Of a stretch of DNA of 64,000 nt, positions 4,809 to 58,500 are shown piece after piece. Under the pieces are notes generated by a model. The model did no database searches. It worked only from the letters and a program-made list of their open reading frames with translations, and was not told where the DNA came from. The first letter of the stretch is position 1. Every line of letters begins with the position of its first letter. The stretch covers positions 1,054,001 to 1,118,000 of the forward strand of contig CM068588.1 in the NCBI GenBank assembly GCA_035048485.1, written 5' to 3'. The position numbers and the translations under genes are program-made. The DNA comes from Pteria penguin. Its lineage: Eukaryota > Mollusca > Bivalvia > Pterioida > Pteriidae.

Positions 4809-7354
4809 ATTATGTTTACATATAAGAATTTGATCGTAAGGGTTTTGGGGGATTTTATGCTTGTGATCAGAATGATATGTATCTGCAATAATGTATCCCG
4901 TTCCCGGTTATTTTCTATTATCACATTCCCTTTTACTAAGAACGTCAAAATAGCGGGGGACGGGGAAACTATAGTAGTTCTATGATATGAGATTTATCCT
5001 TTTTGTCACACTGTATTTAGTCCTCGGTCAGTTGTTGCTTACCGCAGAGGGGAAGGGGGTATTTGTGTTTCACAATCAAAATTTAGACATTTTAAAATTT
5101 GTTATAATTATATTCAATATATCGAAGTAAAATTTAGAAAATTAGGGAAAAAAGTTTTGACAGGGGAATAAGTTCTTTCTGCAAGTTGTAAAACTATTTG
5201 AATATGTGTTTAGTTCTTGATCACATTTTTCTTGCAGCGGTGCAGTCGCTTCCCAATTTAGAGTGGTTGCCGGAGAACATAATTTAGCAGATACAATGGG
5301 CAATGAGCAGACTATCTATGTGTCAACCATTATCGATGTAAGGATCTCTCTCTCTATCCTTCTTTTCTTTTGAAGGTAATCGCACCTCTCTCTCTCTCTC
5401 ATTTTTAAAGTAATCACACGTCTTGCGCTGAATTATTGGAACGCCATACACTATAACATACATTCAGAACATTTATCCTAGCACCCTCAGTACGATGCCA
5501 ACGCTGGAGGATTTCCTAATGACATCGCCCTCTTGAAATTGTCTTCGCTTGCTGTACTTAATGAGTTCGTCAAAGTGGCAAAGTTACCAACAAGTACCAA
5601 TACAAGCTATTATAACGGACTAGAATGTTATATCAGTGGATGGGGCCTAACAGAAGGTAAGTTACCGACTACTATCGGTATTTCCAGGTATATTACATCA
5701 GCAGATGGAGCGTCGCCGAGGGTAAGTCATCGACAAGTATCGGTATCTCCTAGTATAGTGGATTAGAATGTTATATCAGTGGATGTGGCCTACCGAAGGT
5801 AAGTTACCGACAAGTATCGGTATCTCCTGGTATGTTACATCAGTAAATTGGACGTCATCGAGGGTAAGTTACCGACAAGTTTCGGTGTCCTGTAGTATAG
5901 CAGATTAGAATGTTACATCAGTAGATGGTGGCGTCACCGAAGGGAACTTACCGACAAATAACGGTATCTTCTGTTATAAAGGTTTAGAATGTAGAGGGTA
6001 AGTTATCATATCATTACCGAGGGTAAGTTATCATTACCGAGGGTAAGTTATCAGTACCAGAAGCACTAGTACCTCCTTTTATAAAAACCGTTTTCATAAA
6101 CATCTCCTGATGGCTGGCCACCTGTGCAATACATGACATCATAGAAACTAAAGTTTTGTATAATTGCAGGAGGCAATACCAATTCATTGCCGGACAACCT
6201 TCAAGAAGCGCAGACTACCGTGATATCTCATAGTACGTGCCGGAACTCTCTTGGCATTACGGGACTCATATATCTCAACAGTAACTACCACATCTGTATT
6301 CAAACTGGCTACAATGGCGCTTGCAATGTAAGCTGACTTCTCTCTATACAGAGTTGTCGTTCTTTTCTCCCACTTACATCTCTGTCAACGGAAGTTATGC
6401 AATATTCTGCAAAACATTAAGCACTTGGTCTGATTTGATTTCAGTTTTTAAAAATTTTGTCTTAATTCTTCATATGAATAAATAAGATTTTGATGAGGAA
6501 TATTTTTTTATCTCCGCATTCTCATAATTCTGGCATTGGCGTTTTCTACTCCAGAAATTTAAACGAGGAAAACAATTCATACTTGATTCAGCCATATATA
6601 AATTCTTATTCTTGGTGAAGGAAAAGTAAAAATATTCATAACAATGGTATATCTCAGTTTCGTGTACATTTACCATACACTGACATCATCCTATACACCG
6701 ATACTGTACTTCCTCAAAGAGATCAGCAAGATTAAGGAACGACAACTCTGGACACAGAACGATCTCATATTGATGTATATTTTAAAAAATAATAATAATA
6801 GAAATAACCCCCCCCCCCTAAAAACCACCCCAAACAAAACAAAACAAAAACTCATGATGTCTTAAGCATTCAAAGTTATTATTGTTTCTTTTTTCACATA
6901 CCATCTTCCACAATTTACTCTGGTTTAGGTTTTGGACCGTTTGACGCATTTGACCCTTTATTACAAGTTGATGTATACGGAGTAGAGATTTCCATATCAA
7001 CTGCATATTGACGCTGAAAAAAAGTCGATATGTGTTTACCTATGTGTCTTTAGATGGAATTTCCAGCTGATACAATATTATTTCGTTTTATTGTCCTTTA
7101 TATTCCGTTTCCGGCAGGCCAGAGATGATCAAGTTTTATTTAATTTTCATTGAAATTTCAGTGGATTTAATATGATTTGAACTGATTACATTTTGCAGGG
7201 AGATTCAGGTGGCCCCCTTGTCTGTCCCGTTAATAACGAATGGGAGCTGGCTGGCGCCACATCATGGGGATTGCAGAATTGTCCCGTCAATTCACCAACT
7301 GTATATACTCGAGTATCCAACTACCTCACTTGGATCCAAAGCAATATGCAGTAA
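1998..7354 (+). CDS. Secreted chymotrypsin/elastase-like serine protease (S1A), six exons
   Basis: Spliced from 1998-2037, 4190-4364, 5238-5337, 5482-5656, 6170-6327 and 7199-7354. All junctions are GT..AG and in frame, giving 267 aa. Residues 1-14 look like a signal peptide ([13 protein letters not shown]). A short propeptide with one Cys ends at Lys22, before the mature N-terminus IVGG (23-26), so activation by a trypsin-like cut is expected. The catalytic triad is complete: His67 (TAAHC), Asp119 (NDIALL) and Ser219 (GDSGGP). The primary-pocket position equivalent to chymotrypsin 189 is Gly, with Gly at 216 and Thr at 226. Trypsin's Asp189 is therefore absent, and a chymotrypsin- or elastase-like preference is likely. 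The propeptide Cys would bond to the catalytic domain, as in chymotrypsinogen. A digestive or secreted extracellular role is inferred. The start is fixed by the TATA box just upstream; a second Met follows immediately. Confidence 0.9.
2160..2715. other. Protease intron 1, left part: nothing recognised
   Basis: Ordinary AT-rich intron sequence with a short poly-A/poly-G run near 2180-2200. No exon-like segment was seen. Confidence 0.5.
2715..3135. repeat. Degenerate AT-rich tandem array with (GA)n
   Basis: A degenerate unit of roughly 30 bp with the theme 'tctctgtattttatatagag' recurs through protease intron 1, with a (GA)n microsatellite at about 2826-2855. Copies are diverged, and some read 'tataatgtctctgtat'. 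Confidence 0.7.
3398..3945. repeat. 27-bp minisatellite in protease intron 1
   Basis: About 20 imperfect copies of a unit near 'gtgttatgtacctggcacta' plus 'gtttgtg'. Overlapping ORFs of 78 and 88 aa across it are by-products of the 27-bp period (a multiple of three), not genes. Confidence 0.85.
4759..4806. repeat. (ATT)n microsatellite
   Basis: Uninterrupted ATT trinucleotides in protease intron 2. Confidence 0.9.
5657..6060 (+). repeat. Tandem copies of the exon 4 3' end plus donor, in protease intron 4
   Basis: After the exon 4 donor at 5657, the intron holds about four or five diverged copies of the exon 4 terminus ('tagaatgttatatcagtgga' then 'tg-gcctaaccgaag') with the following 'gtaagttaccgac'. 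Clear copies start near 5765 and 5905; shorter remnants ('gagggtaagttatc') follow to 6050. Each keeps a plausible GT donor. Confidence 0.8.
6400..7190. other. Protease intron 5: nothing recognised
   Basis: AT-rich intron with a poly-C tract at about 6808-6818. No exon-like segment or clear repeat was seen. Confidence 0.5.
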
Positions 7355-7511
7355 TGAGCATGGGATATGCCAGTCTGAAACAGTGACAATACTTAAAACT
7401 ATATATATGTGCTTTATGGGCAGTCGATTAGAAAAATGAATATGGAAAAAGAAACCTTGTTAATCATTCTCGATTCATCTCAAGGAAATCTAAGAAAGAT
7501 GTGATTAGTTC

Positions 7512-14342: not shown

Positions 14343-17300
14343 GGTGGTTATTGTGATGATGATGGTGATGATGATGATCATTTCTCTTTCTAGATGCGTG
14401 GGTGAACATCCCAAATCCGTGCACTAATAACCCCAGGAATGTTATTTACTTCCCTCATCCAAGGGATACAACAAAATTCATTCAATGTGATCAACTCAAA
14501 CGAATGTACATAATACAGTGTCCAGCAAACACGGTATACAACACTGCTACCCGCTCCTGTACGGCTCCCGTCACAACTCAAACGGTAAGAACGTTGATAC
14601 AGAGTTATCATTCGTTGTTCTGTGATTTTATTTGTACGTTTGGCACCATTTAAAGATTACAGTGACGGCATTTGCTGAATTCATGACGTCTTCCTTGTGC
14701 CCCATGCAGGATTCATAATGTCTTACTTAATGTGACCCATGCAGGATTCATGACGTCTTACTTGTGCCCTATGCTGGATTCATTACGTCTTACTTGTATC
14801 ATATGCTGGATTCATGACGTCTTACTTGTGTCCCATGTTGGACTCATGACGTCTTACTTAATGTGACTCATGCTGGATTCATGACCTCTTGCTCGTGTCC
14901 CACGCTGAATTCATGACGTCTTACTTGTGTCCTATACTGGATTCATGACGTCTTGCTCGTGTCCCATGCTGGATTCATGACGTCTTACTTGTGTCCCATG
15001 CTGGATTGATGACGTCTCGCTTGTGTCCCATGCTGGATTGATGACGTTTTACTTATGACCCATGCAGGATTCATGACGTCTTACTTGTATCCTATGGTGG
15101 ATTCATTACGTCTAACTTGTGTCACATGCTGGATTCATGACGTCTTACTTGTGTCACATGCTGGATTCATGACGTCTTGCTTGTGCCCCATGCAGGATTC
15201 ATAATGTCTTACTTAATGTGACTCATGCTGGATTCATGACCTCTTGCTCGTGTCCCACGCTGAATTCATGACGTCTTACTTGTGTCCTATGCTGGATTCA
15301 TGACGTCTTGCTCGTGTCCCATGCTGGATTCATGACGTCTTACTTGTGTCCCATGCTGGATTGATGACGTCTCGCTTGTGTCCCATGCTGGATTGATGAC
15401 GTTTTACTTATGACCCATGCTGGAGTCATGACGTCTTACTTGTGCCCCATGCTGGATTCATGACGTCTTACTTGTGTCCCATGCTGGATTCATGACGTCT
15501 CGCTTGTGTCCCATGCTGGATTCATGACGTCTTACTTGTGCCCTATGCTGGATTCATGATGTCTCGCTTGTGTCCCATGATGGGTTCATGACGTCTTACT
15601 TGTGCCCTATGCTGGATATCGATATATGACGTCTCGCTTGTGTCCCATGCTGGATTCATGACGTATAACTTGTTACCCATGCTGGATTCCGACGTCTTAC
15701 TTGTGCCCCACGCTGGTTATATGACGTCTTACTTGTAATTAATCTTTTTGAAAAATACTCACTTGTGGTTAATGCTAATATTTACTTTAAATGTGTTTGC
15801 GTTTAAGGCAGTATTTCAGATCTGTTCCTGTCGGTTCTGTCATTCCATTTTCAGTTTTTAGTCTTGTTACTGTCCTCTTTCTCTCATTTTCTTGATAGCC
15901 TATGGGTTTATTATATTTTCAGCCTGTTACGGTCGGGCTTCAATTTTCATTAAATCTTTTACTGTCCAGTGTTTATTACATTTTCATTCTTTACTGTCTG
16001 ATTTTTTGTTACAGTTTAGTCCTTTTACTGCAAAATTTTTATCACGTTTCAGTCTTTTACTGTGGAGTCTTTATTACATTTTCGCCTGTTACTGTGGAGT
16101 CTTTATTACATTTTAGCCTTTTACTGTGGAGTCTTTATTACATTTTAGCCTTTTACTGTGGAGTCTTTATTACGTTTTAGCCTTTTACTGTGGAGTCTTT
16201 ATTACATTTTAGCCTTTTACTGTGGAGTCTTTATTACGTTTTTAGCCTTTTACTGTGGAGTCTTTATTACATTTTAGCCTTTTACTGTGGAGTCTTTATT
16301 ACATTTTAGCCTTTTACTGTGGAGTCTTTATTACATTGGTAGCTTTTTATCGTTGCGTCTTTATTTAATTTTCAGCCTGTTATTTGTATTACATTTTTTT
16401 TACCTTTTACTGTCGAGTTTGTAATACATCTTTAACCTTTTTCGTTCGAGTTTGCAATACATTTTTAGCCTGTCATTATCGAGTTTGTAATACATTTTTA
16501 CCTTTTATTGTCGAGATTGTATTACATTTTAGCTTTTGTAATGTCGAGTTTGCATATCATTCGCAGCCTAATACTGTTTAGTTTGTATTACATTTTCAGC
16601 CTGTCACTGTTGGGTCGTCGAATCCATGTACTACACAGAATCTCGCTCAAGGAAAAATCTACTTCTCCATTCCTGGTGACAACACACACTTCATAGAGTG
16701 CGGACCAGCAGGAGATGCCAATATCTTACCTTGTCCGACCAATCTGGTATGGGAGGAGAGCAAGCTATCCTGTGTTTACCGCTTCCAGGCCGGGCAAACG
16801 GACCCCTCACCCACAGGAGGTGCACAACTGGGCCAAGGAGGTATAATCTGCTCTGGGTAGTACAGTACCATGTTTAACTGTTTCCCAAATCTGAATAAAA
16901 CACTGTTCTCTTTTTGCATAGGCTTTGCGCCAGTAAGTGCAAATCTAGGGCACCTTTGTCATCAAATTGATTATTTCCGGAAGGTTCCCTAGATAAGAAC
17001 TCACTTCTTTGACCACAAATTTACAAAACATGTCGTGTCTACATATCACGATGACGTATATACAGGCGACTGCTACTTCACTGACCATATCTCACCATGG
17101 TCAATTGACCACACAAGCAAGGAAAAATGATTGAATCGACAGAGATTACACAGTTTTTATACCACTCATTTTCGAAATCCGCAGACTACCTTATAAACAA
17201 GGGCATGTAACTCATCTCATAAAACTGCCCTATTCAAGTTAATACTACTGGAAACATAAGTAAACTGTGTACTTCCACGATATACCCGTGGAATCACTGT

Positions 17301-32964: not shown

Positions 32965-33255
32965 ATGATAAGGTTGAAAACTTCCAATACTATCAGTAAA
33001 ACTCCAGATATGTCACTCAAAATGGCTGAGTATTTTAGCTAATACGTAACTTTCACATGTGCCCCGCCTCACTTTTTCGGAAATCCTGGATCCGCCACTG
33101 ACATGGACATGTTTCTAATGTTCTTAATGATGACAAATGTCTATATATCATTAATACTTTATTTAATTTAAATGTTTATTTTATCTTGTAGGTCAGTCTA
33201 CTACACACATTTAGATAATAGACAATGGGGTGAAGATCGAACCAGCCCAATGTAC

Positions 33256-34581: not shown

Positions 34582-37500
34582 GTAAGTCGATGCTCTTCTA
34601 CGGAAGCTAAGTTTGTCAGTGGTCACGAGCTGCAGTAGAGATGTAAGTCGATGCTTTTCTATTGAAGCTAAGTTTGTCAGTGGTCACGAGCTGCAGTAGA
34701 GATGTAAGTCGATGCTTTTCTATGGAAGCTAAGTTTGTCAGTGGTCACGAGCTGCAGTAGAGATGTAAGTCGATGCTTTTCTGTGGAAGCTAAGTTTGTC
34801 AGTGGTCACGAGCTGCAGTAGAGATGTAAGTCGATGCTCTTCTACGGAAGCTAAGTTTGTCAGTGGTCACGAGCTGCAGTAGAGATGTAAGTCAATGCTT
34901 TTCTATGGAAGCTAAGTTTGTCAGTGGCCACGAGCTGCAGTAGAGATATAAGTCAATGCTTTTCTATTGAAGCTAAGTTTGTCAGTGGTCACGAGCTGCA
35001 GTAGAGATGTAAGTCGATGCTTTTCTGTGGAAGCTAAGTTTGTCAGTGGTCACGAGCTGCGGTAGAGATGTAAGTCAATACTTTTCTGTGGAAGCTAAGT
35101 TTGTCAGTGGTCACGAGCTGCAGTAGAGATGTAAGTCGATGCTTTTCTATGGAAGCTACCGGTAAGTTTGTCAGTGGTCACGAGCTGCAATAGAGATGTA
35201 AGTCGATGCTTTTCTACGGAAGCTTAGTTTGTCAGTTGTCACGAGCAGCAGTAGAGATGTAAGTCGATGCTCTTCTACGGAAGCTAAGTTTGTCAGTGGT
35301 GACACTGGTGTTGATTCTTTATCCGTATAGGCAAGTCCAGCATTCGTGCAGAAGTCTCTGTAGAATTCATGCACGGATCCAGAGGAGTGAACCGGCGTCT
35401 GGGCCCACCTAGAGATTAAGCGACAATTAGTTGTTAGTTTTCGGGGGAGGGGGACACAATTTCTAGACCTGTGCCTGGAATACACGACTAGCTATATTTT
35501 CTTACTTTTATCAAAATTATTCATGAATTAACTCATATTGAGACATTTACTATTTGTTCTACTTGAGACAGATTTGTGGACAAAATTAATAGTCTATGAT
35601 TTATACAGCACCCCGTGAGGGAGGGATAGTGCAATCTCACCCCGATTGCAAACAGTTTGATCAAATCATGACGAGGCTTGCCTGCAGAGCAAAATGGCAT
35701 ATAGGAATAAATTTGTCCGTCTCTCTTTCTGGTAGAAGTGACATTTTAAAATAAAATTTTCCGTCTGTCTGTCCAGTAGTAGTGAAATATAGGAATGAAT
35801 TTAACCATCTGTCTGTCTGTCTAGCATTAGTGACATATCAGAATGAATTTGTCCATCTGTGTGGTAGTTGTGACTTATTGGAATGAATTTGTCTGTCTGG
35901 AATTACTGTTAGTCATTCAATCTTTTGAAAATTGGAAATATGCCGGCGTAGGTCAGTCGTAAGGGTGCTGGGCTTGTTGGCGTAGCTAATTTGGTAGAGT
36001 ACTTGGTTTGTCAGCATAGGTCAGTCGTAAGGGTGCTTGGCTTGTCGGCGTAGCTTCTTTTTTAGGGTTCTTTGCTTGTTGGCGTAGGTCAGTCCGTAGG
36101 GTGCTTGGCTTGTCGGCGTAACTCAGTCGGTAGGGTGTTTGCCCTGTCGGCGTAGCTCAGTCGTTGTGGTGCTTGGCTTGTCAGCGTAGTTCAGTCGGTA
36201 TGGTGCTTGGCTTGTCGGCGTAACTCAGTCGGTATGGTGCTTGGCTTGTCGGCGTAAATCAGTCGGTGTGGTGCTTGATTTTTCGGCGTAACTCAGTCGG
36301 TAAGGTGCATGGCTTTTCGGCGTAGGTCTGTCGGTGTGGTGCTTGCCCTGTCGGCGTAGTTCAGTCGGTAGGGTGCTTGGCTTGTCGGCGTAACTCAGTC
36401 GGTAGGGTGTAAGGCTTGTCGGCGTAACTCAGTCGGTAGGGTGCTTGGCTTGTCGGCGTAACTCCGTCGGTATGGTGCTGGGCTGGTTGGTGTAGCTCAG
36501 TCGGCATGGTGCTCGGCTGGTTGGTGTAGGTCAGTCGGTAAGATGTTTAGCTTGTCGGTGTGGCTCAGTCTGTAGGGTGATTAGCGTGTTGGTGTAGATC
36601 TGTTGGTAAGGTGATTGGCTGGTTTGCGTAGCTCAGTTGATAGTTTGCTTGACTTGTCGGCATAGTTTGGTCGGTAGGGTGGTTGGCGTAGCTCAGTCTT
36701 TAGGGTGCTTGGCTTGTCGGCGTAACTCGATATGATGGTTGGTGTAGATCAGTAGGTAGGGTGCTTGGCTTGTCGGCGTAGGTCAGTCATTGGGGTGCTT
36801 GGTTTTTGACGTAGGTCAGTTAGTAGGGTGCTCGACATTGCACATTTAAGAGGGTGGTTGGAGTGTCGGCGTAGCTAGTTGTGGAGGGTGGTTGAATGTC
36901 GGCGTTGTTTGGTCGGTAGAGTGCTTGGCTTGTCGGCACTGCTCAGTCTGTAGGATGTCTGTTGTCGGCGTTGCTTGTTCGGTAAGATGCTTGGCTTGTC
37001 GGTGTTGTTCCGTCTGTATGTTGTCGGCATTGCTTAGTCTGTAGGTCGCGTGTCTTGTCGGCGTTGTTTGGACGGTAGGATACTTGGTTTGTCGGCGTTG
37101 TTTGGTCAGTAGGTTGTTTGGATTGTCGGCGTTGCTTGGTCGGTAGAGTACTTGGCTTGTAGGCGTTGCTTGGTCGGTAGGGTACGTGGCTTGCCAGTGT
37201 TGTTTGGACGGTAGGATGCTTGGCTTGTCGGCGTTGTTTTTTCGGCAGGGTACTTGGCTTGTAGGCGTTGTTTGGTCGATAGGGTGTTTGACTTATCGGC
37301 ATTTCTCAGTCTATAGGGTGCTAATGCCTCATGACTGAGAGTTCCTGGACCACAGACGTACCGGTGGCTCACCGTTGTCCAATCTTTCGCTGGGAATTTA
37401 AGAGAAAGTAAAACCCATACCAGGGTAGACATGGCATGTGACAGATCTTTCACTGATTCGGGAGGGTCTGTTGCACAGGTCTAAATGCATGTGCAAGCGC

Positions 37501-40500
37501 ATCTGGCAGATCCCTTTCTACTGGAGTGTTTAAGTGGAATAATCATAGCGTCTCTTAACACAATTTAGAATCCAACAAAACATAATATATATTCAAAGGT
37601 AGATTTATGTAATATATATATATATATCATGTTTTTAATCAGCTATTGATGCAGGTATTAAATTGATATTTTTTGGATAGGATTCTTACCAGGGCACTAC
37701 CTTTTGTGGACTTGGTAGTAACATAGGTATACAGGATCTAGTGACGTCTAACAAGCATTTGTACTCTCTAAATGCTTTGTACAGTGTCAAGGACACCCTG
37801 CTCACCACGGTCAAGGCCGTTCATCACAGAAGTACCCATGTGGCAATTCTTGGAACTCAGCAAGGCAAAATGCTCAAGGTATCATTATTTGGCATAATTC
37901 TTTTTATATGAAGGCTGCATCACTGTGTGGCAGATTGACTAGACTACAAGTAGTAAATAGGATGTTGTGTCCAATTCTTTCATTCAAAATTAAAACTCAT
38001 CTGACTATAGATATCAGTGAATGAATTTTTCAAAAGAAGTTTATCTTTATATATATATGTATTTATAGTAATGATATTTTTACTTGTTATAGTAAATGTA
38101 TATCAGTTAATTGATGTGATTTTAATAATTTACACATTGACTTTACAAATTTGATTTGGTTTAAGTCATGTTTATTTTACTATATATGGTTTCCATAAAA
38201 CTGGCTTACTTCACAACTAGTGATTTTACTACAGTATGGTTTCATAAAACTGGTTTACCTCAACAGTTGTTGCACTGTGGTTTCCATAAAACTGGCTTAA
38301 TTACTTCACAACTAGTGATTTTACTATGGTTTCCATAAAACTGGCTTACCTCACAACTAGTGATTTTACTATGGTTTCCATAAAACTGGCTTACCTCACA
38401 ACTAGTGATTTTACTATGGTTTCCATAAAATTGGCTTATCTCACAACTAGTGGTTTTACTATGGTTTCCATAAAACTGACTTATCTCACAGCTAGTGATT
38501 TTACTATGGTTTCCATAAAACTGACTTATCTCACAACTAGTGATTTTACTATGGTTTCCATAAAACTGACTTATCTCACAGCTAGTGATTTTACTATGGT
38601 TTCCATAAAATTGGCTTATCTCACAACTAGTGGTTTTACTATGGTTTCCATAAAACTGACTTATCTCACAGCTAGTGATTTTACTATGGTTTCCATAAAA
38701 CTGACTTATCTCACAACTAGTGATTTTACTATGGTTTCCATAAAACTGACTTATCTCACAACTAGTGATTTTACTATGGTTTCCATAAAACTGGCTTATC
38801 TCACAACTAGTGATTTTACTATGGTTTCCATAAAACTGACTTATCTCACAACTAGTGATTTTACTATGGTTTCCATAAAACTGACTTACCTCACAACTAG
38901 TGATTTTACTATGGTTTCCATTAAACTGACTTACCTCACAACTAGTGATTTTACTATGGTTTCCATAAAACTGGCTTACCTCACAACTAGTGATTTTACT
39001 ATGGTTTCCATAAAACTGACTTATCTCACAACTAGTGATTTTACTATGGTTTCCATAAAACTGACTTATCTCACAGCTAGTGATTTTACTATGGTTTCCA
39101 TAAAACTGACTTATCTCACAGCTAGTGATTTTACTATGGTTTCCATAAAACTGACTTATCTCACAGCTAGTGATTTTACTATGGTTTCCATAAAACTGAC
39201 TTATCTCACAGCTAGTGATTTTACTATGGTTTCCATACGGCTGATTTAAGTCACAGTTTATATCACAGTTATGTTACCTACCAAATGGTAGATAACTCCA
39301 CTATGAAAATACCCAATTGGGAATGACACTGAGTTACAATGAAAGCATTTTGTCCTGATGCTTTTCTGTCATAGCCAAAAATAATTCTGGTTTTGTTTCT
39401 ATTTAAGGTGTTTGCAGACCGACATACTAAATTCCCGATTCTAACTTATGACGTTACGAAAGATTCTTCCATTCCCATCATGTCTGACTCTCAACTCGAT
39501 GTGGAAAAAGAGAATATATATTTACTATCAGCAGACAAGGTATATTATCATGCTATAGATATAGTCGGCCAACAATGTACTATTTATATCAACCATCTGC
39601 TGTTTATTCGCAAAGTATTTTATGACATCAGTGGTCAACTGACAAGATATATTTTCCGAATTTAAGTATATGTTATACATATGTGGTTATCAAACATTTT
39701 TAAAGTATTATGAATATTTATTTCTACCATTAACTGACAACGGACAAGTTATTTAGATGATATATAGTCAACACACAAGCATAATTTTATATATCATCAA
39801 CAATTATGTATATCAACTGTCAAGTATCTACTGACAATTTAAGATATTTGATAATAGGTCCTGCTGACAGTATATTCATAAATGCTGTTAGCTGACAAGG
39901 TAACATAAATGATGTAGATATTTAACTACATGTAAAAAGGTATATATATCTACTGTCAGCTGACAGTGTATTTTATGATGTATATATAGTCAAAAATGTA
40001 TATATATCTACTGTCAACTGACAGTGTATTTTATGATGTATATATAGTCAAAAAGGTATATATATCTACTGTCAACTGACAGTGTATTTTATGATGTATA
40101 TATAGTCAAAAAAGTATATATATCTACTGTCAACTGACAGTGTATTTTATGATGTATATATAGTCAAAAAGGTATATATATCTACTGTCAACTTACAGTG
40201 TATTTTATGATGTATATATAGTCAAAAAGTATATATATCTACTGTCAACTGACAGTGTATTTTATGATGTATATATAGTCAAAAAGGTATATATATTTAC
40301 TGTCAACTGACAGTGTATTTTATGATGTATATATAGTCAAAAAAGTATATATATCTACTGTCAACTGACAGTGTATTTTATGATGTATATATAGTCAAAA
40401 AGGTATATATATCTACTGTCAACTGACAGTGTATTTTATGATGATAGTCAAATTTCAAGATATTATATGTCTCACTTTATGTGCTGTCAGCTGACAAGGT

Positions 40501-43500
40501 ATTATGTATCTACTGTCAGCAGGCAAGACTTTATTTGAAATATGTAATCAGATGTTATGATATGATATGACATTCAGGTGCAGTAAGCTACTCTCTGGGC
40601 CACCACAGTTGGTGCTTTATTTCCCAGGTCATTGCTTTAAACGTCAGACCTCCTAAGATATTCTATATCAAGGTTAACATGTCAGACCTCCTGACTGCTG
40701 AGGTACTCTATTTCAAGGTTAACATGTCAGACCTCCTGACTGCTGAGGTACTCTATGTCAAGGTTAACATGTCAGACCTCCTGACTGCTGAGGTACTCTA
40801 TTTTAAGGTTAACATGTCAGACCTCCTGACTGCTGAGGTACTCTATTTTAAGGTTAACATGTCAGACCTCCTGACTGCTGAGGTACTCTATGTCAAGGTT
40901 AATATGTCAGACCTCCTGACTGCTGAGGTACTCTATTTCAAGGTAAACATGTCAGACCTCCTGACTGCTGAGGTACTCTATTTCAAGGTTAATATGTCAG
41001 ACCTCCTGACTGCTGAGGTACTCTATTTCAAGGTTAACATGTCAGACCTCCTGACTGCTGATGTACTTTATGTCAACTTTAACATGACACTTTAAAGATC
41101 CCTCACTGCTTTGTGTGGGAGAAGTTGCATAGGACTCAATTTCCATGTATTAGGCAGATGATGACACCATTCAAGTGAAAACTGTTGTTGGTGTCATGTA
41201 AAACAAAAAATTGTATATTGTTACTGTGGTGATTATTGTTACCTTGGTGATTATTGTTACTTTGGTGATTATTGTTACCTTGGTAATTATTGTTACATTG
41301 GAAGCTATTGTTACCTTGATAAGTATTGTTAGCCTAGTTTTTTTTTGTAACCATGGTTCATTTTTCATTTTAGGTTCATAAGGTTCCTCTGAAGACATGT
41401 GCCATGCATAGGACGTGTGAAGTTTGTGTGTCAGGGGGGGATCCACTACAGTGTGGATGGTGTCTTGATAGATGTACATTTCAGAGCGAGTGTGTCAAAC
41501 CTACTGCAGAAGGTGGTGTACTGGCTGTGTGGTCCAACGATACCTGTCCACCTGTAATTAACCAGGTATATTACGTTTTACACTTGTTATTAACCAGATA
41601 TCTAACAACAGTTATTGTCTCTATCAGATATATGTAATGTAATTCCTGTAAATCTACCAGGTGTGTTACAAACAACACATGGCATCTACTATGTATGTAA
41701 TAACTCTTGTAATACACCACATGTGTAGCATCACTTGTAATCTGCCAGGTATATGTAACAACACCTTTAAATTACTTAGTATGTAACAAAACCTGTAATC
41801 TACCAGGTGTATAATAACACCTGTAATCTACCAAGTATGTAATAACACCTGTAATCTACCAGCTGTATAACAACACCTGTAATCCACCAGGTGTATAATA
41901 ACACCTGTAATCCACCAGGTTTTCTTTACAATGCCTTTATCTACTGGTGTGTAACAACACCTGTAATCTACCAGGTGTGTAATAACACCTGTAATCTACC
42001 AGGTGTGTAATAACACCTGTAATCTACCAGGGTGTGTAATAACACCTGTAATCTACCAGGTGTGTAATAACACCTGTAATCTACCAGGTGTGTAATAACA
42101 CCTGTAATCTACCAGGGTGTGTAATAACACCTGTAATCTACCAGGTGTGTAATAACACCTGTAATCTACCAGGTGTGTAATAACACCTGTAATCTACCAG
42201 GCTTTTACTATGTCTTTATCTACTGGTGTGTAACAACACCTGTAATCTACCAGGTGTGTAATAACACCTGTAATCTACCAGGTGTGTAATAACACCTGTA
42301 ATCTACCAGGTAATTACTATGCCTTTATCTACTGGTGTGTAACAACACCTGTAATCTAATAATTATGTAGCAGCACCTAGCTGTAATCAACAAGGTATCT
42401 AACAACACCTGCAGTCTGCCAGGTATGTAAACGAAACATTCAATATTGGTAATCTACCTTGATTTAAGGGTCCTGTATATTTGTAGGTGCGGCCTCAAGC
42501 AGGTCCTCTAACAGGTGGAACAGAGCTGGTGGTAGAGGGCCGTAACTTTGGATCTTCTTCAATTAGCAGAGTCACAATAAAGATAGGGGCCAAACTTTGT
42601 AGTATAGTGAAACAGGTCCCAAATAAGTAAGCCACATTTCATGTTAACATAGGGCTATATTTATTTTTAGCTCACTGGGATGAATATCCACAGAGCTATT
42701 GTCATACTCCTGATGTCGTTTTAGTCATCCATAGACAAAAACTTTAAATTGGATCATAACCATTAGAGACAGGTCATTAATATTTCACATGATTGGTTCA
42801 AACATTATTTATTAATTTCATGTACATAAATCAATCAACAATTAAAAACTATCAGGATTTGGCAACAAGATAATGATCTTATAAGCCATCTCCTGGAAAA
42901 CATACATGACTTTTAGGAACAAAAACAAGAAAGCAGACAGTATACATTTAACTGTGATATGTTTAAATCATTTAAGAGTGTACTAGAGAAAGGGTAATGA
43001 AGGGTAGTGAGAAAATTGAATGGGTAAAAATTATACATACATATTTGTATACATAATGATTGGTTGTGTATTCGTTGTGTCAAGATTTTTCATTGGGTAC
43101 CAGATGTTTAACCTTTAGCTTTGGTCATAATTCATGAACAGTAAAAGGTAGAGCGTAAACATTTCATGTGTGTATTCCTGGTGACAAGACCTTTCATCAA
43201 TCATGTATCAAAATCTTTAAGATTGACCTACTTAGACAAAATCTTAAACTCTTCAGAACCATTAGAGACAGGGCTTTAATATTTCACATGTTTATTCACT
43301 GTGCCAAGATGTTTCACGAATTTTCAGCCTCAGTTGATCAGTTGATCAAAAAGATATAAACAGAGAGCATTGTAAAATTCCTTCACTTTACAATGTATGT
43401 CTTGGCATAAAACATTTTACTCTCATTATTTATATTTCATATCTATTTATAAAGCTAGGTTGTGTCTTAACTGGTCTTAAGTACTTGTATCTTATAGGAG

Positions 43501-46500
43501 ATAAATTTAGGGATGCTGAAAGTGCTCCATAATTCTCGAATGATGTATATTTTTTTCATAGTTTGACGTGCACAACACCCATCTCGGATGTTGCCAAGTC
43601 GGAACAAATTTCTGTTCAAGTTTATGATGATTCCAAGTCGTCTGCTGGTTACAAAATCAACGGTGTGGCCACAGGGCTTAACTTCAGCTATAAGGTTTGT
43701 ATAATTCATGATATCCACATCTCTTTATATCTGAATATCATTGAAAGTTTTCGGAAAGCCTTGGAATGTCTGTAAGTTTAGTTTTGATTAATACTATTGT
43801 TTTTATTCCCCCAGCATTAAGAGCTGGGTTATACCTCAGTGAGTGAAGCGTTTATCAGAAATGCACTGTATGAACCATGGTATATTAGCCGATTTTATTC
43901 CCAACATTGTCATATTTCTCAAGCTAGCGTGTATTTATTTCAGGTTCCATTCCTCTCTGACTTCACTCCAAAATTAGGTCCCTTGTCTGGTGGTACATTA
44001 CTGACTCTTCAAGGAGAAAATCTAGACATAGGCTCACGTCACAGCGTCACTGTGGCAGGTGTCGCCTGTGATATCATCCAGTAAGTGGAGATAACTCTGT
44101 ATCTAATAGTATTAAAAAATCAAATAAGGTGTATTATGTAACATATTCCCGTAATTATTTATATGTAGGATAATATTGATTTTTAATCATAAAGGTTATA
44201 ATAATAATTAATTACCATTATAAAACTACAGCCCCCTCCAATCCACATTGATCAAATGTAAAACACAGAGAGGACCATCCGCACAGCGTCGTAGAAGGGC
44301 AGTAGAGAGTGATGTAGTTAGCTCAGGAAATGTAACCCTGATGATTGATGGCCAAAGCTACAGTAGCCAGAAGCAATATGAATACCACAAGGATTCTACC
44401 ATCATTAACATTAGCCCTCGAAAATCTATCCAGAGGTATGTATTCCTAAATCTATCCAGAGTTCTGTACTCCTTAAAAATCCATATAGAGATTATAATGC
44501 ATTGCTCAATTAATTAAACATTCTGTACTTATAAATCCATCCACATGATTGTATTTTTCATAAATCCATCCAGAGGTTTGTAACCCTTTTAAATTCATCC
44601 AGAGATCTGTACTCCTTGTATATCCATTTATAAATCTGTATTCCTAAAAAATCCATCCAGAGATTTGTACTCTTCATAAATTCATTCAGAGATTTGTTAC
44701 TCCTTGTGAATTCATCGGCAGATTACTGCACACTCCTTATAAATCCATCCAGAGGTCTGTATTCCTTATGAATCCATCCAGAGGTCTGTATTCCTTATAA
44801 ATCCATCCAGAGGTCTGTATACTCCTTATAAATCCATTCAGAGGTCTGTATTCCTTATGAATCCATCCAGAGGTCTGTATTCCTTATAATCCATCCAGAG
44901 GTCTGTATTCCTTATAACTCCATCCAGAGGTAGTGTGCTCTTTATAAATCCATTCAGAGATCTGTATTCCTTATTAATACATCCAGAGATGATAGTATTC
45001 CTTATTATCCTGATTACAGAGATTTGTTACTCCTTATGAATTCTTCCAGATATCTGTACTCTTTAATTATATCATAAAGTGTTGAAGTTGTGTATTTCTT
45101 TTATATACTAAATATCTTATGTTCTGCTGTCAGACATTCTTGATTTGAGATTTGATTCTAGAGAGCACCTGATTGGATCCCATTAGTACATGTAGTCTCT
45201 GGTTGGATCCCATTAGTCTCTGGTTGGATCCCATTAGTACATGTAGTGTCTGATTGGATCCCATTAGTACATGTAGTCTCTGATTGGATCCCATTAGTAC
45301 ATGTAGTCTCAGGTTGGATCCCATTAGTACATGTAGTCTCTGATTGGATCCCATTAGTACATGTAGTCTCTGATTGGATCCCATTAGTACATGTAGTCTC
45401 TGATTGGATCCCATTAGTACATGTAGTGTCTGATTGGATCCCATTAGTACATGTAGTCTCTGATTAGATCCCATTAGTACATGTAGTCTCTGATTGGATC
45501 CCATTAGTACATATAGTCTCTGGTTGGATCCCATTAGTACATGTAGTCTCTGATTGGATTAGTACATGTAGTCTCTGATTGGATCCCATTAGTACATGTA
45601 GTCTTTGATTGGATCCCATTAGTACATGTAGTCTCTGGTTGGATCCCATTAGTACATGTAGTCTCTGATTGGATTAGTGCATGTAGTCTCTGGTTGGATT
45701 AGTACATGTAGTCTTTGATTGGATCCCATTAGTACATGTAGTCTCTGGTTGGATCCCATTAGTACATGTAGTCTCTGGTTGTATCCCATTAGTACATGTA
45801 GTCTCTGATTGGATTAGTGCATGTAGTCTCTGATTGGATTAGTACATGTAGTCTTTGATTGGATCCCATTAGTACATGTAGTCTCTGGTTGGATCCCATT
45901 AGTACATGTAATCTCTGATTGGATCCCATTAGTACATGTAATCTCTGATTGGATCCCATTAGTCTCTGATTGGATCCCATTAGTACATGTAGTCTCTGAT
46001 TGGATTAGTACATGTAGTCTCTGATTGGATCCCATCAGTACATGTAGTCTTTGATTGGATCCCATTAGTACATGTAGTCTCTGGTTGGATCCCATTAGTC
46101 TCTGATTGGATCCCATTAGTACATGTAGTCTCTGATTGGATCCCATTAGTACATGTAGTCTCTGATTGGATCCCATTAGTACATGTAGTCTCTGATTGGA
46201 TTAGTACATGTAGTCTCTGATTGGATCCCATTAGTACATGTAGTCTCTGATTGGATCCCATTAGTACATGTAGTCTCTGATTGGATCCCATTAGTACATG
46301 TAATCTCTGATTGGATCCCATTAGTACATGTAGTCTCTGATTGGATTAGTGCATGTAGTCTCTGGTTGGATTAGTACATGTAGTCTTTGATTGGATCCCA
46401 TTAGTACATGTAGTCTCTGATTGGATCCCATTAGTACATGTAATCTCTGATTGGATCCCATTAGTACATGTAGTCTCTGATTGGATTAGTACAAGTAGTC

Positions 46501-49500: not shown

Positions 49501-52500
49501 ATTGTCTATCAGTGTTTTTTATTATCAAACACAAAACATAGCAACATTAGTAAGGACAATTTCCTGCATTATGTCTGTCTGTATGTCTGTACATATGTAT
49601 TGATGAGGAACCTCAGATTTATTAGAACAAAAAGTCATCTGTGTCTCTGGTGGTAACATATTTTCTAAGATCTTAACTAGTTGTCTAATCCATTATAAAA
49701 CTGATACAAAGTCATGGATTACCTTAGGGAGAGAACATTGAATTCGGTGTGACAGATAAGGACATATATATTGTCATTGGAAACTCTGGCTGTAGTGTGA
49801 CCTTGGTCAAGGAGACAGTGGTATATTGTAAACCAATGAACCGACCAGACCCTGTCAGTGAGAATGAGCCAAGACGCAAAGTGGAGGTAAGAAAATGAAA
49901 CAGAGTTTTCATATATTATGTGGTATATAGGTAATTGCTGCAATCTATACTATGCTGATAAACAGCAAAATATTTTTAATGCCTTAGGAAAGTCAGGTGT
50001 GGTAAAATTAGGTTGTTTCTATCTGTCTGCCCATCTGTAAGTCTGTGCGACAGATTATCAACCCTTGGTCTTGCTGTCTTACAAGTATTTGTCTTATTTG
50101 GGCATTTTGGTACTGCCATGAGCATTTTGGTACTGCCATGAGCATTATTGTGTCTTACAAATGCCTTTATTTATTCATATTTGTCTTTATGCTCCTTTGA
50201 AATGTCAGGACTCCTAATCATACATTCTATGTCATTAGAAGTCGCTCGAACCAGATAGCTAACAGTTGGTACTAATGGTTTGTAAAACCGAGGGGTTCTG
50301 GGATTGAGTCGAACAAGCGGACAGTTTGTCTCTGTCTTGTTTTTTTGATGGGACGGTAAAATCTAATGATCATGATAGACACGGTACATAGATAATATTT
50401 TTGCTGATTTGGGACGTTGGTCCTTTGCCTTAATATCTCATTTGTGGTGCATTGAATCAGAGGCAGAGCAGCAGCCATTACAATGTAAGTGAAATAATTT
50501 TGGTTTTATGTAAAACAAACTGTATAAACATTTTTCTTCATACCCTTTGTATTCAAAGAATCAGTTATTATTATATTGATTACTTGTTGCTAGGTAACGG
50601 TAGGTCGATTGACCTTTGACATTGGTGAGCTGGTTTACATAGGAACTGTCAGTTCGGGAAATGTAACAATCATCGTATTGGGAGTGATCATTGCTGTGGT
50701 CGTCATAGGAATTATCTTACTTCTCATCTTGATGAAGATGAGAGGTTTGGCGTGCTTCAGTAAGAAGAATTTAGACTACGGTGTGGAATATCGTGCTGGT
50801 CAAGAAGTTCAGTTTCAAGGTTTGGACTCGGGTGGTCAACAAAGAATGTTTGATTTCCAGAATAGAGAAAATGGTGAGTGTTAATCTTAGCTATGGTACA
50901 TGTATCTACATGTAAACACTTATAAGGACTTTCTGAATCCTTTGGGTTTTGGCTGAGAGACTGAATGATTTGATATCTTGAGGTCAAGGTCATTTGAAGT
51001 ACTGTCACTGAGAAAATTTTGTTTTTATAAGCATAATCTGTGACAAACTCCTATGAATTAAAATCATAAAACATTTTGATTCTTTTTCTTTGTTTTTTTG
51101 TCAGTCTAAGAGTGAGATCTAGATCTGTAAATAGGAAAATTATGAACAATTTAATTATGAAAATCCAGGAAGAAGGAAAGAGAAATGTTTCAATTAAATG
51201 TGTCAGTCACCAGTTAAAATATTTGAATTTTATATTATTATTTAATATTATTTACAATATATGAATATTATATTACAGTTACCTTAGTGCATTATCTTAG
51301 TGATATTTAATATTATATTTTATATGAATATTATATTATCATTACCTTCGTACATAATCTTCGTGACATTTTATTTAATGACATATACCAGTATTATATT
51401 ATTGTTACCATAGTGCATATTCTTGGTAATATTTTTAAATATGACTATTATATTACCCTTACCTTAGTGGTATTTAATATGATTGCAGCATATCAGGAGC
51501 AGCGTCTGTCTGAGAGTGGAGCAAATGGTGCAGCCGGGGGGATTCCCCCGATCATGCTGGATGATGATACATTACTAGTGCTCAAAGATGCCAACTTACT
51601 AATAGAAAGGGAGTGGCTAGCACTGGGCGAAATCCTTGGCAGAGGTAAAAGACAGTTATAATGTATAGTAGGCAGGGGTTAACTTAATACAATGTAATCA
51701 ATGGAGAGTGGCTAGCTGTAGGGGAAATACTTGGCAGAGGTAAAAGACAGTCATATAGTAGGCAGGGGTTAACTTACAATGTAATCAGTGGGGAGTGGCT
51801 AGCACGGGATGCTAGTGCTCAAAGATATGCGAACTTACTAATAGAAAGGGAGTGGCTAGCACTGAGCAAAATCCTTGGCAGAGGTAAAAGACAGTTATAG
51901 TATATAGTAGGCAGGAGTTCACTTACAATGTAATCAGTGGGGAGTGGCCAGCCCTGAGCGAAATCCTTGGCAGAGGTAAAAGACAGTTAAGATATATAGT
52001 AGGCAGGGGTTCTGTAACTTACAATGTAATCAGTGGGGAGTGGCTAGCACTGGGCAAAATCCTTGGCAGAGGTAAAAGACAGTTATAACATAATAGTAGG
52101 CAGGGGTTCACTTACAATGTAATCAGTGGGGAGTGGCCAGCCCTGGGCAAAATCCTTGGCAGAGGTAAAAGAGTTATAGTATATAGTAGGCAGGGGTTCA
52201 CTTACAATGTAATCAGTGGAGAGTGGCTAGTTCTGGGCGAAATCCTTGGCAGAGGTAAAAAACAGTTATAATACATAGTAGGCAGGGGTTAACTTACAAT
52301 GTAATCAGTGGAGAGTGGCTAGCACTCGGCGAAATCCTTTGCAGAGGTAAAAGACAGTTATAATATATAGTACCAGGGGTTAACTTACAATATAATCAGT
52401 GGGGAGTAGCTAGCAAGGGGGGAAATCCTTGGCAGAGGTAATAGACATTTATATAGTAGGAAGCTCCGAGGGAAATCGTAATGGCAGAAGTAAAAGAGGG

Positions 52501-55500
52501 TTATTTAGTCATGAATTAATATATTAATCAATAGAGAGTGGCTAGCCCTGGATGTAATTCTTGGCAGGTAAAAAAATGTCATGATATCTACCTGTCCAGT
52601 AGGTTGAAAAGAAAAAACAAATCTTAAGGTTGTATCACAAAATATAATTCTTCAAAAATTTAAACATGTGTAAAATCATGTTCTGTATTTAGATAATTTG
52701 TGTAGAAACATTTACTTCTGTTATTGATAGGTCATTTTGGATGTGTGTATAAAGGCTTCGTAACCATTCCTGACACCAAAGGAGAGACGCTCGTCGCAGT
52801 CAAAACGCTTCATCGTAAGTGCAAACCCAGATTATAGTTATATACCACAGAAATTTATCGTACGAAGTCAGATGCAGGTTAATTAACTAAATTTAAATAA
52901 TTGTCTTTTTTTATTAGTTGCAAAATATCTTTTGGCTTGCAAAATAAGGCTCACAGGGATACTGAGAAGGTACATAATTGCCCGTTTGTTTTGGAAACAT
53001 TTCGTTTATAATTTCTTACAGAAAACAATCCCCGTGATATTGACATACAGCAGTTTATCGATGAGGCGTTACGCATGAAGGACTTCCATCACCCCAACGT
53101 GTTGACCTTGACTGGTATCTGCTTCGGCATGGATGAGATGCCCCTAGTTATACTGCCGTACATGAAACATGGGGACCTTCTCTCCTATATCAGGAATGAG
53201 GAAAATGTAAGGGTGTTTTATTAAGAATTTGTTTGTTGTTTTATGCAATGTGATTTTTATGCCCTTGTTTGAAAAATATAGGGGCATTTGTATTGTCAGT
53301 CTGTCTGTCTGTTTGTCTGTCTTTTTTTATGTCCATCTGATTGTCCATCCGTCTATATGTAATTCCGTCCCTCTTGAAGATAGATACAATACATTCTTTA
53401 TCTTGAACACTAAACTGACCAAAATTCAATAGTTGTGTGTGTATCTTGGACTTTCTCACATTTTGAAAGCATTCCCAGACCAAGGACTTTGGAGATTGGG
53501 TAGGGTCAGTATTTAAACATGGTGAAATTTTATACAAAAAGCTACATACAATGTCATGTTCTTTAATTAGGGCCCACATTGTGGTGCCTGTAGACAAATT
53601 TGTAGGGCATCATTGTGTTACAAACACATCTTACTCTTATAGTGGTGGTGTTTGTCAGATACATGGCATAGATATTTTGACCTATGCAACGTACCCGCCA
53701 AGGGCATGCAGTGAGGCTCTGAAGTTTTAATGTAAAAGGTAACACAGGACTTGCATGAGTATTTACAGGATTTCGGTATTTACAGGACCTCAGTATTTAC
53801 AGAACCTCGATCAGTATTACAGGTCCTCAGTATTACTGGACCTCTGTATTTACAGCTAGGACCTCAGTGTTACAGGACCTCAATATTTATAGGACCTCAG
53901 TATTTACTGTCTCATCTGATAGACAGATCACTCAGTCTGATGCATTGCTTCATAATAAAACTCTTCCCATCAATCTCTAAGTCACCCGTAGTCAAGCCAA
54001 TTCAGATAAATGTTGACCAGCTTCTACTAATAGACATCAAACCCTCGGCAGATTGTCTGAAATGCTCTTTTAAATCCCCCAAACTGATACAGACAGTGTA
54101 TGTGTTTTTCATTGTAATTTATATGTATTTAGACTGTAATTGATTTGTAACATACATACTAGCTGAATCTGTAGTGGTTAAGTACTGGACTTGCTGTGCA
54201 CACTTAATATGATGGGATTAAATGCTGTACTTGTAATGTTCCAGAGCCTGAACTGAACATCAGGTGTAATGGTTAAGTGCTTAACTTGCTGGTGCAAGCT
54301 GAAACATTGTTTAATTCCTTATAAATTGTGCCAGTATATTATAGAATTTGGTACCAATCTCTATTTCCATGTCAAGATATGACTGAAACATTGTTAAAAA
54401 CGTTATAAAAGCATTAGAAAACATTTACAATGTATTCGTATTAAAGTATTAAGAATTTTAGGGTTTTGACTGATTACGATTAATTTTCTTGTTCAGAATC
54501 CTACCATAAAGGATCTGATTATGTATGGAATCGATGTTGCCAAGGGGATGGAATATTTATCACATCTCAAGGTTGTTCATCGTGACCTTGCAGCTAGGAA
54601 CTGCATGTAAGTGTTAAAAATGTAAGGATAAGAATGGAATTATACAAAGTATTATTGGTTTATTATCTGCATGCTGAAAAATCTTTGAAAATCACCAATT
54701 ATAAAACTTGTTCAAGAAATTTAGTCATGTTTGGTGCTCTTCATTCTTATATGCTGTTATTATATATAATCAGTGGTATTTTACAAGTATTCTCTTCTTC
54801 AAAAAATATTTACCCAAAATCAAAATATATAATTTGTGTTTCAAGGGCACAGAGGTTTTTATACCCTAGTTTTTTTCTGTTTGACCTAGTGTATAGAGTT
54901 TGTATGTCTGTATTTATCTCCATCCACTCTTTAATCACACTTTCATGAATTCTGCCTCTTTTAGGCAATTTGCTGCTACCACCAAGGGAGCATTTGTGTC
55001 TTGGAAACATATGTTCAGATCTATAGAAATTGGGGAAGAGGGAATGGGGGTGCTGCCCTCCTTTTTTGGTCGATTATAAATTGATTATATATTACAATAC
55101 GAATAGAAACATGATTCAAGCCCCCACCTTCATTTTTGAAATGTTTCCTATTGTCTTGATGAAATTGTTTTATGATTTTCTTTGTGTCTTGATTGTTATA
55201 TAGTGTGACTGTCACAATAAACTAACAATAACCTAGTTAATTAGGAGTACGGTGACTTACACTGAATATTGTGACTTACACTGAGTATTGTGACTTACTC
55301 TGAGTATTGTGACTTACTCTGAGTATTGTGATTTACTCTGAGTATTGTGACTTACACTGAGTATTGTGACTTACTCTGAGTATTGTGATTTACTCTGAGT
55401 ATTGTGATTTACACAGGGTATTGTGACTTTCAGAATATTGTGACTTACACAGAATATTGTAACTTACACTGAGTATTGTGACTTACACAGAGTATGAGTA

Positions 55501-58500
55501 TTGTGACTTACACAGAGGATTGTAAGTTACTCTGATTATTGTGACTTACTCTGAGTATTGTAACTTACACTTAATATAATGACTTACACATAGTATTGTG
55601 AGTTACACTGAGTATTGTGACTTACACTTAGTATTGTGACTTACACTTAGTATTGTGACTAATACACTGAGTATTGTGACTTTCACTGAGTATTGTAACT
55701 TACACTGAGTATTATGACGACAGGTTAGATGAAGATTTCAATGTGACAGTAGCAGACTTTGGGCTGTCAAGGGATATATACGAACGAGATTATTACAGCA
55801 GCGATAACAAAAAAAGCAAACTTCCTGTGAAGTGGATGGCTCCAGAGAGTCTGGAGAAAGGAACATACAGTTCGAAGTCTGATGTGGTGAGAGATCAAAT
55901 TTGGTCAAAACTTCTGAGCAAATTAGTATTGTACTTAGTTTAATTTTAACTACAGTTATCTTTCTTTGAAGTTAATTTCAGAAAGGAGGAATTGATATTT
56001 AAAAATATATCTACTGAATCAGAGCTAGATGTTTTGTTTTGTTAATTCTTGTTTAATGATATGGTGATGGCATCTGCCTGATGCAATTCACAGAAATTTA
56101 TACTTTTGCAATGGATCCAACCAAAGCAGTGAGGGGATCTTTTATCAGACATGACGAGTTTTTACTGTCTCATATGAAATACATGACACAGATAAGCCAC
56201 AGAATTTGGACCTCTTTGTAATGTGCTAAGCACCAAACACATTGAGGTATAGGCCGGCTCAATCAGTGCTAGTTACCATGGTGATGTCTACTGGAAATCA
56301 TACTTACTCGCTCTACTGTGTTAAATTACAGTAAGCAGCAAAACGTGGACCGATTTTGATAATACGGCCATAATATTCTTTACATTATTGTGTAAACTTG
56401 CACTTTTGATTAGTCTTTTCTGCAGCTTGTGTCAAATTTGCCAGTTTGTGTATTATGTAATCTGAATCATTCTCATATTTGGTATGATTCAGATTTCATA
56501 TATTAGTAACTTAAACTGGCAACTTAAAACATTCACTATATATATAGAAAAGTCTGTGTATTGCCATCCAGTGACAAATTGGACATGAAGTAATATCAAT
56601 ATGGCCGTTTGATTAATGTTTATCCATGTATATATGTATATGATATTTGTTCCATTTGAATATGCAGTGAATCTTGCTGGCACATTAGTTAAGATAGTGC
56701 AATTTAGTCTTTAATTGTTCAAGTATGCACAGTGACACCGAGTAAGACTGAATGGCTAAAGCTCGTCCAAACTCGATCGAGACAGGATTATCCCTTGTGA
56801 TTCCAGGTCAATGTTCAGTTGACTTTCAGATTTTGTATCTAGCTATCTCCTACCTAGTGCTATTAAGCATACACATATTATATGACAGGGTTTATTATAA
56901 AGTGGTCTGTGCTTTAATCTGGTTTTCTTGAAGTTTCAGCAGGTACTCTCCCTAATTTTTTATCTCAGTTGTAGTATACATGGATGTCCTTTATCTTCTC
57001 TTGTAATGATCTCCATTTTAGTGGTCATATGGTGTAGTTCTTTGGGAGCTTATGACAAGGGGAGTGAATCCATATCCTGAAGTCGATAACTGGGACGTCC
57101 TCAGATTTATCAAGAAAAACAGACGAATGCCTCAGCCTCCATTCTGTCCAGATCACTTGTAAGTATACTTGTTGCTATGGCAACAAGAACACAAATTTTA
57201 ATTCGAATGATAGATTTTGACGGAGAGAGAACTTGATTGACTGATTGACACTGGTCTCATGCCTTAGATATAATTACAGACAGAGAGTTTTATTTGAAGC
57301 ATATTGATGGACCTCAGGTCAGAGTCACAGTCATTCTACTCTTTTAATGTTAAGCCTATGTCATCCTTCTTATCTGATGACTGGTGATTGTAGAGCTGGC
57401 TATTGACAATTTTTTTTAACTTACTGATTGGGAAGATAACTGGACTCGAGTTAAATCCAGATGTTTTATTAAAATCATATTAAATGAACAGATTTTTAAA
57501 TGTGCATTGGCACACAGCTTAAAACTATGTTACTCTTTCAAGTTGTGCAGTTAAAATTACATGTACTTGAAATTATGATCAAGAAATAACAAAAATAGCC
57601 ATTGTCCAGATATACCACACATCCAGATTTATCTTCCTGACCAGTATATCTGTCTTATTCCACCTATGTATATACAGGGCAGGAGTTGCCACAATGTTTG
57701 CCTTTAGTAATTGTAGTGTGAAACAGTAAACAAATAAAACAAAACGTTATGTGACACATCACACGTGATATGTTATGCATCCACAATCGCTGAGTTAATC
57801 ACTTTGACCCTATTCTCAATGCATCAGGTGTCAAAATGACTTGATTTAGCACATATCTGCTATTCATGTCGAGGCATTGTTGCAGTTAGTTTTTGTGAAT
57901 TTTTGTGTACTCAGTATTGGCCCAGTTGTAATTGGTTAGCACACTTGTACCGGTAAAATATGAAATCAAAATTAGCACAGTACAGTATTAGAAAGAAAGT
58001 ATTGTGTCAGACTGATAATGTATTATATGTTTAATCAAACATTTACCAATTTAGTAAACATTCAATCCTATTTCAGACTGACAAACAATTTTTTTTTCCC
58101 TCAAAATAATTGCCAGTCACATTCACAAAGAAGTTAATAACTTGAATTATGACAGAAAAATGACAGTTGATCAGTGATGGCTTACTTTTTTTGTGTATAC
58201 TCCATATCAATTCAGCCTCTACTCAAATTAACACTTGTATTGATTCAAGTTAAAAAAAATAATTGATTCTTGAACATCTCTTTACATTTCAAGTATATTT
58301 AATAGTCCACATACTAGTAATTTGAAGGCATTTGAATGATTTTTCATTTCATTTATGCCATACAAACTAAAGTTTTAGATTTGTTGTATTAAAGTTTATT
58401 GTGTATTTAGGTACAAGATGATGACGAAGTGCTGGCAGTTCAATCCCAGTGATCGCCCACCATTTTCTGAAATTGTGATAGAAATTACGGATATGATTTC

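Follow-up and report, generated by a model that had tools for sequence, protein, structure and literature searches.

Why do so many introns of this bivalve locus carry tandem repeats whose units include the edge of the neighbouring exon, and do such repeats start preferentially at exon–intron borders or are they simply tolerated there? The window, a stretch of 64,000 nucleotides (contig C9:1054001-1118000), was analysed together with genome-wide searches of the 838-Mb assembly (49 contigs). Three plus-strand genes with GT-AG introns and open frames were recovered by splicing, with 27 introns in total (Table 1); a model of the chitin-binding gene with a tiny additional exon did not stay in frame and was rejected in favour of the one used here. 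The introns of the three genes sum to 31.3 kb, less than the "about 50 kb" of the preliminary description of this stretch. Tandem arrays, defined by TRF with a period of at least 8 and a length of at least 60 and then merged, numbered 29, of which 20 were intronic, and they occupied 37% of intron sequence. Within window 1998-58819 this is approximately five times the share found in stretches around symporter genes of the SNF family, where exons and flanks are included.

Arrays that contain their own splice junctions

The repeat unit of each array was aligned to 60-nt junctions, with the junctions of other introns and 200 shuffles per array serving as controls. Seven of the 20 intronic arrays held a junction of their own intron (six donors and one acceptor), with scores of 49 for the donor of protease exon 4, 48, 29, 18, 32 and 56 for the donors of receptor exons 1, 3, 4, 8 and 13, and 34 for the chitin-binding acceptor at 16600, whereas the best scores of the same seven arrays against other introns' junctions were 11–16 and the shuffle maximum was 14–17. 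Receptor exon 4 is the weakest of the seven and receptor exon 3 the diverged case; an acceptor match in receptor intron 12 (score 18, 5 exon nt) was marginal and was left out of the count, and the remaining 13 intronic arrays are without counted exon sequence. Units of the junction-containing arrays range from 28 to 143 bp. In an ungapped scan, 6 of 54 junction 30-mers were copied (at least 22 of 30 positions) within their own intron, with 0 of 54 copied elsewhere in the window and 0 of 54 in antisense. Exon sequence alone, searched by BLAST, gave intronic copies for 4 of 30 exons, all in the downstream intron, with 32 of the 35 matches ending no more than 2 nt from the exon 3' end. Junction-spanning arrays in the window introns are real, and the preliminary observation that repeat units in three unrelated genes hold exon–intron junctions is upheld, the own junction outscoring the controls. 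An eighth array, said to run into the acceptor of receptor exon 17, does adjoin that acceptor (score 21) but stops approximately 5 nt before it and holds zero exon nucleotides.

Table 1. Gene models, source exons and junction-associated tandem arrays, in window coordinates
Feature	Position	Strand	Description	Basis
Trypsin-like protease gene		+	6 exons	Splicing, Pfam support
Protease exon 4	5491..5656	+	Array source	Splicing; exon-only BLAST copies of exon nt 78-166
Protease exon 4 array	5607..6053	+	TRF periods 79 and 142; exon end and GTAAGT donor	
Chitin-binding protein gene		+	5 exons	Splicing
Chitin-binding fourth coding exon	16600..16840	+	Source of acceptor-side array	Splicing
Chitin-binding array	15909..16610	+	Unit of ~32-33 bp; acceptor TTTTCAG and exon start	
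Sema/PSI/TIG receptor tyrosine kinase gene		+	19 exons, 1437 aa	Splicing, Pfam support
Receptor exon 1	33454..34581	+		Splicing, Pfam
Receptor exon 1 array	34558..35300	+	61-bp unit x12; last 24 nt of exon 1 and first 37 nt of intron	
Receptor exon 3	39408..39539	+		Splicing
Receptor exon 3 array	39934..40443	+	58-bp unit with diverged copy of exon end	
Receptor exon 4	41374..41565	+		Splicing
Receptor exon 4 array	41645..42358	+	28-bp unit CCTGTAATCTACCAG/GTGTGTAATAACA from exon end	
Receptor exon 8	44232..44435	+		Splicing
Receptor exon 8 array	44422..45065	+	29-bp unit from exon end; TRF rows 44422-44473 and 44528-45065	
Receptor exon 13	51489..51644	+	Start of kinase domain	Splicing, orthologue alignment
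Receptor exon 13 array	51848..52453	+	92-bp unit; ~34 nt of exon end, GTAAAA donor and intron	
Receptor exon 17 array	55252..55718	+	19-bp unit; adjoins acceptor, exon start 55724	

The arrays differ in how much exon they took up and in how well the splice signal has been kept. Up to the last 89 nt of protease exon 4 were taken into copies (exon-only BLAST), and the AG of the chitin-binding array is kept in 13 of 15 recognisable copies. Within the receptor gene, GTAAGT is kept, with donor strength equal to that of the real site, in 10 of the 11 intronic copies of the exon 1 array; the donor in the exon 3 unit is much weaker than the real donor, and the common donor of the exon 4 unit, of which up to 25 intronic copies are recognisable, is also weaker than the real one. 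The exon 8 array retains GT in 7 of 13 recognisable intronic copies, again weaker than the real donor, and the exon 13 array has GT in 9 of 9 copies. Intron 13 has an additional donor-bearing copy at 51740, closer to the exon, and a copy at 51812-51883 that includes 70 nt of exon, compared with 34–36 nt in the other matches shown; at least two duplications, differing in their end points, therefore took place.

The direction of copying is clear from comparison with other bivalve sequences. The closest receptor protein is that of Pinctada imbricata (64% identity over 89%), followed by Ylistrum balloti (53% over 57%), in which the stretch around joins 3 and 4 is missing, and the copied receptor exon ends encode residues conserved in the P. 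imbricata orthologue (P0001), for example at the start of the kinase domain. The genome most probably belongs to a bivalve that is a relative of P. imbricata and not that species itself. None of the 18 receptor exon joins shows an array-sized insertion when aligned to the Pinctada protein, an indirect hint that splicing is undisturbed. On these sequence grounds the array copies derive from the exon, because the copied residues are kept in Pinctada and the BLAST matches lie downstream and end at the exon 3' end.

Occurrence elsewhere in the genome and relation to amphioxus mirages

As an independent sample, 20 stretches totalling 170 kb around exons of SNF-family symporters, with 114 exon cores, yielded 38 array calls, counted as 37 arrays because one array was cut in two. 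Two of the 37 were junction-spanning (one donor and one acceptor). At L032 (7081-8042), a 68-bp unit ends in CCCCAAGG/GTGAGT, with GT in 12 of 15 recognisable donor copies, and at L036/L037 a unit of approximately 91 bp comprises TTTCAG/GTTGCC and about 70 nt of exon, with AG in 6 of 6 copies, the genuine junction being counted in both cases. Exon-only BLAST of the 114 cores gave matches for four (L032, L036/L037, L040 and L046), of which L046 was rejected as a low-complexity match and L040, with one partial additional copy of the exon start, was classed as a two-copy duplication rather than an array. That copy lies on the minus strand at 3960-3780, directly upstream of the acceptor, and possibly represents the first step of an array. 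A third, acceptor-scored candidate (L048) was dropped, the exon most likely beginning about 75 nt further on, and the arrays at L010 and L023 were judged by eye to sit just within the intron without exon sequence. At 30 kinase loci, with 22 arrays, exon-containing units were not found at the two edges of the matched exon, which were the edges tested; at many of the 30 the whole domain lies in one frame.

The preliminary description knew of no named system for this pattern, yet one exists in the 'mirages' of amphioxus, which were reportedly first described by Canestro in 2002. According to a later account, mirages are minisatellite-like tandem duplications across an exon–intron boundary that occur in several genes per genome, including amphioxus Adh3 and the globins BflGb6 and BflGb9 (PMC3087553). 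The same text places them at 5' or 3' boundaries with units of 10–160 bp and AG/GT in many, not all, copies, reports allelic and somatic instability together with normal splicing, considers mirages possibly general in cephalochordates and proposes them as a route to new introns (PMC3087553). In structure the window arrays agree with this portrait: units span the boundary in seven of the 20 intronic arrays, 5' as well as 3' boundaries are involved (six donors and one acceptor in the window, one of each in the SNF genes), units measure 28–143 bp compared with 10–160 bp (PMC3087553), and many but not all copies keep AG/GT. The differences are that the reported range is cephalochordate, which is not strictly defining, whereas the nearest receptor protein here is that of a pearl oyster, and that up to 25 recognisable intronic copies and five such arrays within one gene occur here. 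Judged by these structural features, the window arrays belong with the mirages, as a new instance, in another phylum, of a phenomenon already known.

Two other systems resemble the arrays in part. Intron gain by tandem genomic duplication of AGGT-containing segments (compare PMC4974935) likewise duplicates exon sequence with splice signals, whereas the arrays here sit within existing introns and no new intron was seen. Ordinary intronic minisatellites share the unit length, divergence and copy-number range, and 13 of the 20 intronic arrays of the window are without counted exon sequence, but in the seven others the unit includes coding sequence from the adjoining exon together with its splice signals. 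No bivalve precedent was found among publications judged by title and the start of the abstract, mollusc, oyster and bivalve topics included. The portion of text covered for earthworm metallothionein introns describes minisatellites and no junction units (PMC12783039), and that for amphioxus huntingtin mentions tandem repeats alone (PMC2206037). Mirage-type arrays in five genes of four families of a bivalve would mean that minisatellites spanning exon borders originate in animals only distantly related to one another. Such arrays offer a test bed for how the spliceosome settles on the copy next to the exon when a dozen are equally strong and for whether such repeats feed new introns, and they are a trap for gene predictors and tandem-repeat annotation.

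Tolerated or preferred starting points

We consider it probable that these arrays are junction-spanning minisatellites of the mirage kind, produced by ordinary birth and turnover, with borders tolerated since the exon-proximal site still works. Slippage or unequal exchange would give rise to minisatellites all along the gene, and a duplication would by chance take in an exon end with its splice site, or an acceptor with the exon start. Additional copies would land on the intron side, leaving the exon-proximal copy as the splice site. Seeds within exons would be removed by selection, whereas intronic seeds would survive, as would border seeds because the exon-proximal site still works. The arrays may then expand and homogenise like any minisatellite into rows of decoy splice sites, which are probably ignored or yield transcripts with premature stops. 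Borders would on this account be tolerated, not preferred, starting points.

The main challenge to tolerance is a true enrichment, in which tandem duplication starts preferentially at exon–intron borders, for instance by way of R-loops coupled to transcription or splicing. Under a random-seed model conditioned on how many arrays there are, on their unit lengths and on their host introns, with arrays stripped from the introns, 2.1 junction units were expected in the window and 7 of 20 observed (P=0.0018); with full intron length in the model the expectation fell to 1.05 (P=9e-6), and on the donor side there were 6 against 1.07 (P=0.00027). All three values are post hoc, the window having been picked for the pattern. 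In the SNF sample, 2 of 37 units were seen against 2.5 expected and the sample therefore fits random seeding; pooling gave 9 of 57 against 4.7 (P=0.03), a figure that includes the post hoc window.

Array placement was compared with predicted splice sites at four distances (10, 30, 60 and 100 bp). In the window, 4 array ends lay within 10 bp of a splice site against 1.0 expected (P=0.009), with no excess near predicted splice sites at 30, 60 or 100 bp. Array ends from the 38 SNF calls exceeded expectation at 10 bp (4 against 1.8, P=0.035), 60 bp (11 against 5.2, P=0.0035, the strongest signal of the four distances tried) and 100 bp (12 against 7.6, P=0.037), with 5 against 3.1 at 30 bp (P=0.15). 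This clustering speaks for border preference and, with the window excess, against tolerance. Donor-like sites in the 57 units, 6 in sense and 3 in antisense (shuffled mean 2.0, sd 1.75), are a weak contrast that tells against preference.

An annotation-free genome-wide test counted the consensus donor octamer AGGTAAGT in triplicate against three composition-matched octamers. The donor octamer gave 1121 triplicate matches and 31,549 single occurrences (3.55 per 100), the reversed octamer 676 and 43,061, and two further controls 1453 and 2026 triplicates with single counts of 25,221 and 28,192. The three controls thus ran at 1.57, 5.76 and 7.19 triplicates per 100 singles, with the donor inside their range. 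Hand-clustering of the matches listed for C1 and C2:1-33.7 Mb had given 24 donor arrays against 10 reversed-octamer arrays (binomial P=0.0008, given the single counts), and among the matches listed for C1:1-72.9 Mb there were 11 arrays of GAGTAATG, 8 of the donor and 4 of TGAATGGA. The donor excess over the reversed octamer was rejected as support for seeding because the rates of the two further controls were higher.

The suggestion that junctions are hit more often than random placement allows thus stands for the window, post hoc, and not for the SNF unit count, while preferential initiation at borders finds agreement in the SNF array ends and none in the SNF unit count or the octamer rates. 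Biased seeding at borders is possible but unproven, and as the main explanation for these arrays we regard it as unlikely. Its wider form would have duplications in this bivalve lineage begin preferentially at the splice sites of transcribed genes or right next to them, would tie intron growth to splicing or transcription and would make amphioxus mirages an outcome of the same process; it is doubtful and, if anything, a little less likely still.

That multiplied splice sites are themselves selected, for U1 binding, for the steering of splicing or for regulated unproductive transcripts, is improbable. Every decoy tested would bring a premature stop (64 of 64 GT-bearing donors and 13 of 13 AG-bearing acceptors), with the stop inside the added sequence for 75 of the 77. 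This is the pattern of poison sites, and the decoys of real strength in the exon 1 array and the intact GT of the exon 13 array would also suit selection. In four of six arrays (exon 13, exon 4, L032 and L036) GT or AG is mismatched less often than the remaining unit positions, which tolerance alone does not predict, but GT shows no such advantage in the other two (exon 1 and exon 8), and in the arrays of exons 3, 4 and 8 the donor common in the unit falls short of the real one in strength. The full protein would be obtainable only via the exon-proximal copy, which is probably the site used because all 77 tested decoys bring a premature stop.

Receptor paralogues on the same contig also tell against selection and favour the mirage account. 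Introns 13 and 16, which measure 1086 and 1117 bp in the window gene, are approximately 100 bp and approximately 200 bp with a GA microsatellite in two paralogues, and neither intron holds a minisatellite in either. In the region corresponding to intron 15, both paralogues have an array, though a different one. The two paralogues match each other at 97.6% over 3.9 kb and share 48–77% protein identity with the window gene in most exons compared (29–41% in one HSP), a distance that sets only a loose limit on the age of the arrays. Downstream of the window, at C9:1136226-1260391, there are apparently three tandem receptor paralogues, of which two (L051 and L052) match each other at about 98% over 3.9 kb of the sequence compared, with identities to the window gene of 27–28% in the first exon and 74–75% in two kinase exons.

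Chance in an array-rich spot, where unusually many arrays would put several on junctions, is more improbable again as a full account. Arrays fill 37% of window intron compared with 6.9% across the SNF stretches, where exons and flanks count too, and approximately two of the seven junction arrays are expected from random seeding, but the model already conditioned on array number, unit length and host introns still gave P=0.0018, in a window picked post hoc. Tandem arrays are error-prone to assemble, yet copy numbers or placement made by the assembler are a negligible prospect here, the units differing by substitutions and partial copies and similar arrays being present on other contigs.

Other repeats in the window

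Receptor intron 1 also contains, at 35944-37322, an array of about 1.4 kb with a 34-bp unit, CGGCGTAGCTCAGTCGGTAGGGTGCTTGGCTTGT, which by eye resembles the first half of a tRNA and has no Rfam or ARAGORN match at that position. A tRNA-like element at 49283-49356 (Rfam tRNA, 32.8 bits; ARAGORN tRNA-Arg), perhaps the head of a SINE, has only a short stretch in common with this array (local score 12). A long inverted-repeat, MITE-like element occupies 62591-63054, with arms of 175 nt that are 85% complementary and 114 nt apart, and a palindromic repeat is present in two copies at 10037-10146 and 12060-12223, with arms of 40 and 66 nt and TGAATACGACGAAATA common to both. Shortly upstream of the receptor gene, at 32771-32965, there is a perfect two-copy tandem duplication of 97 bp, which is either a very recent duplication or an effect of assembly.
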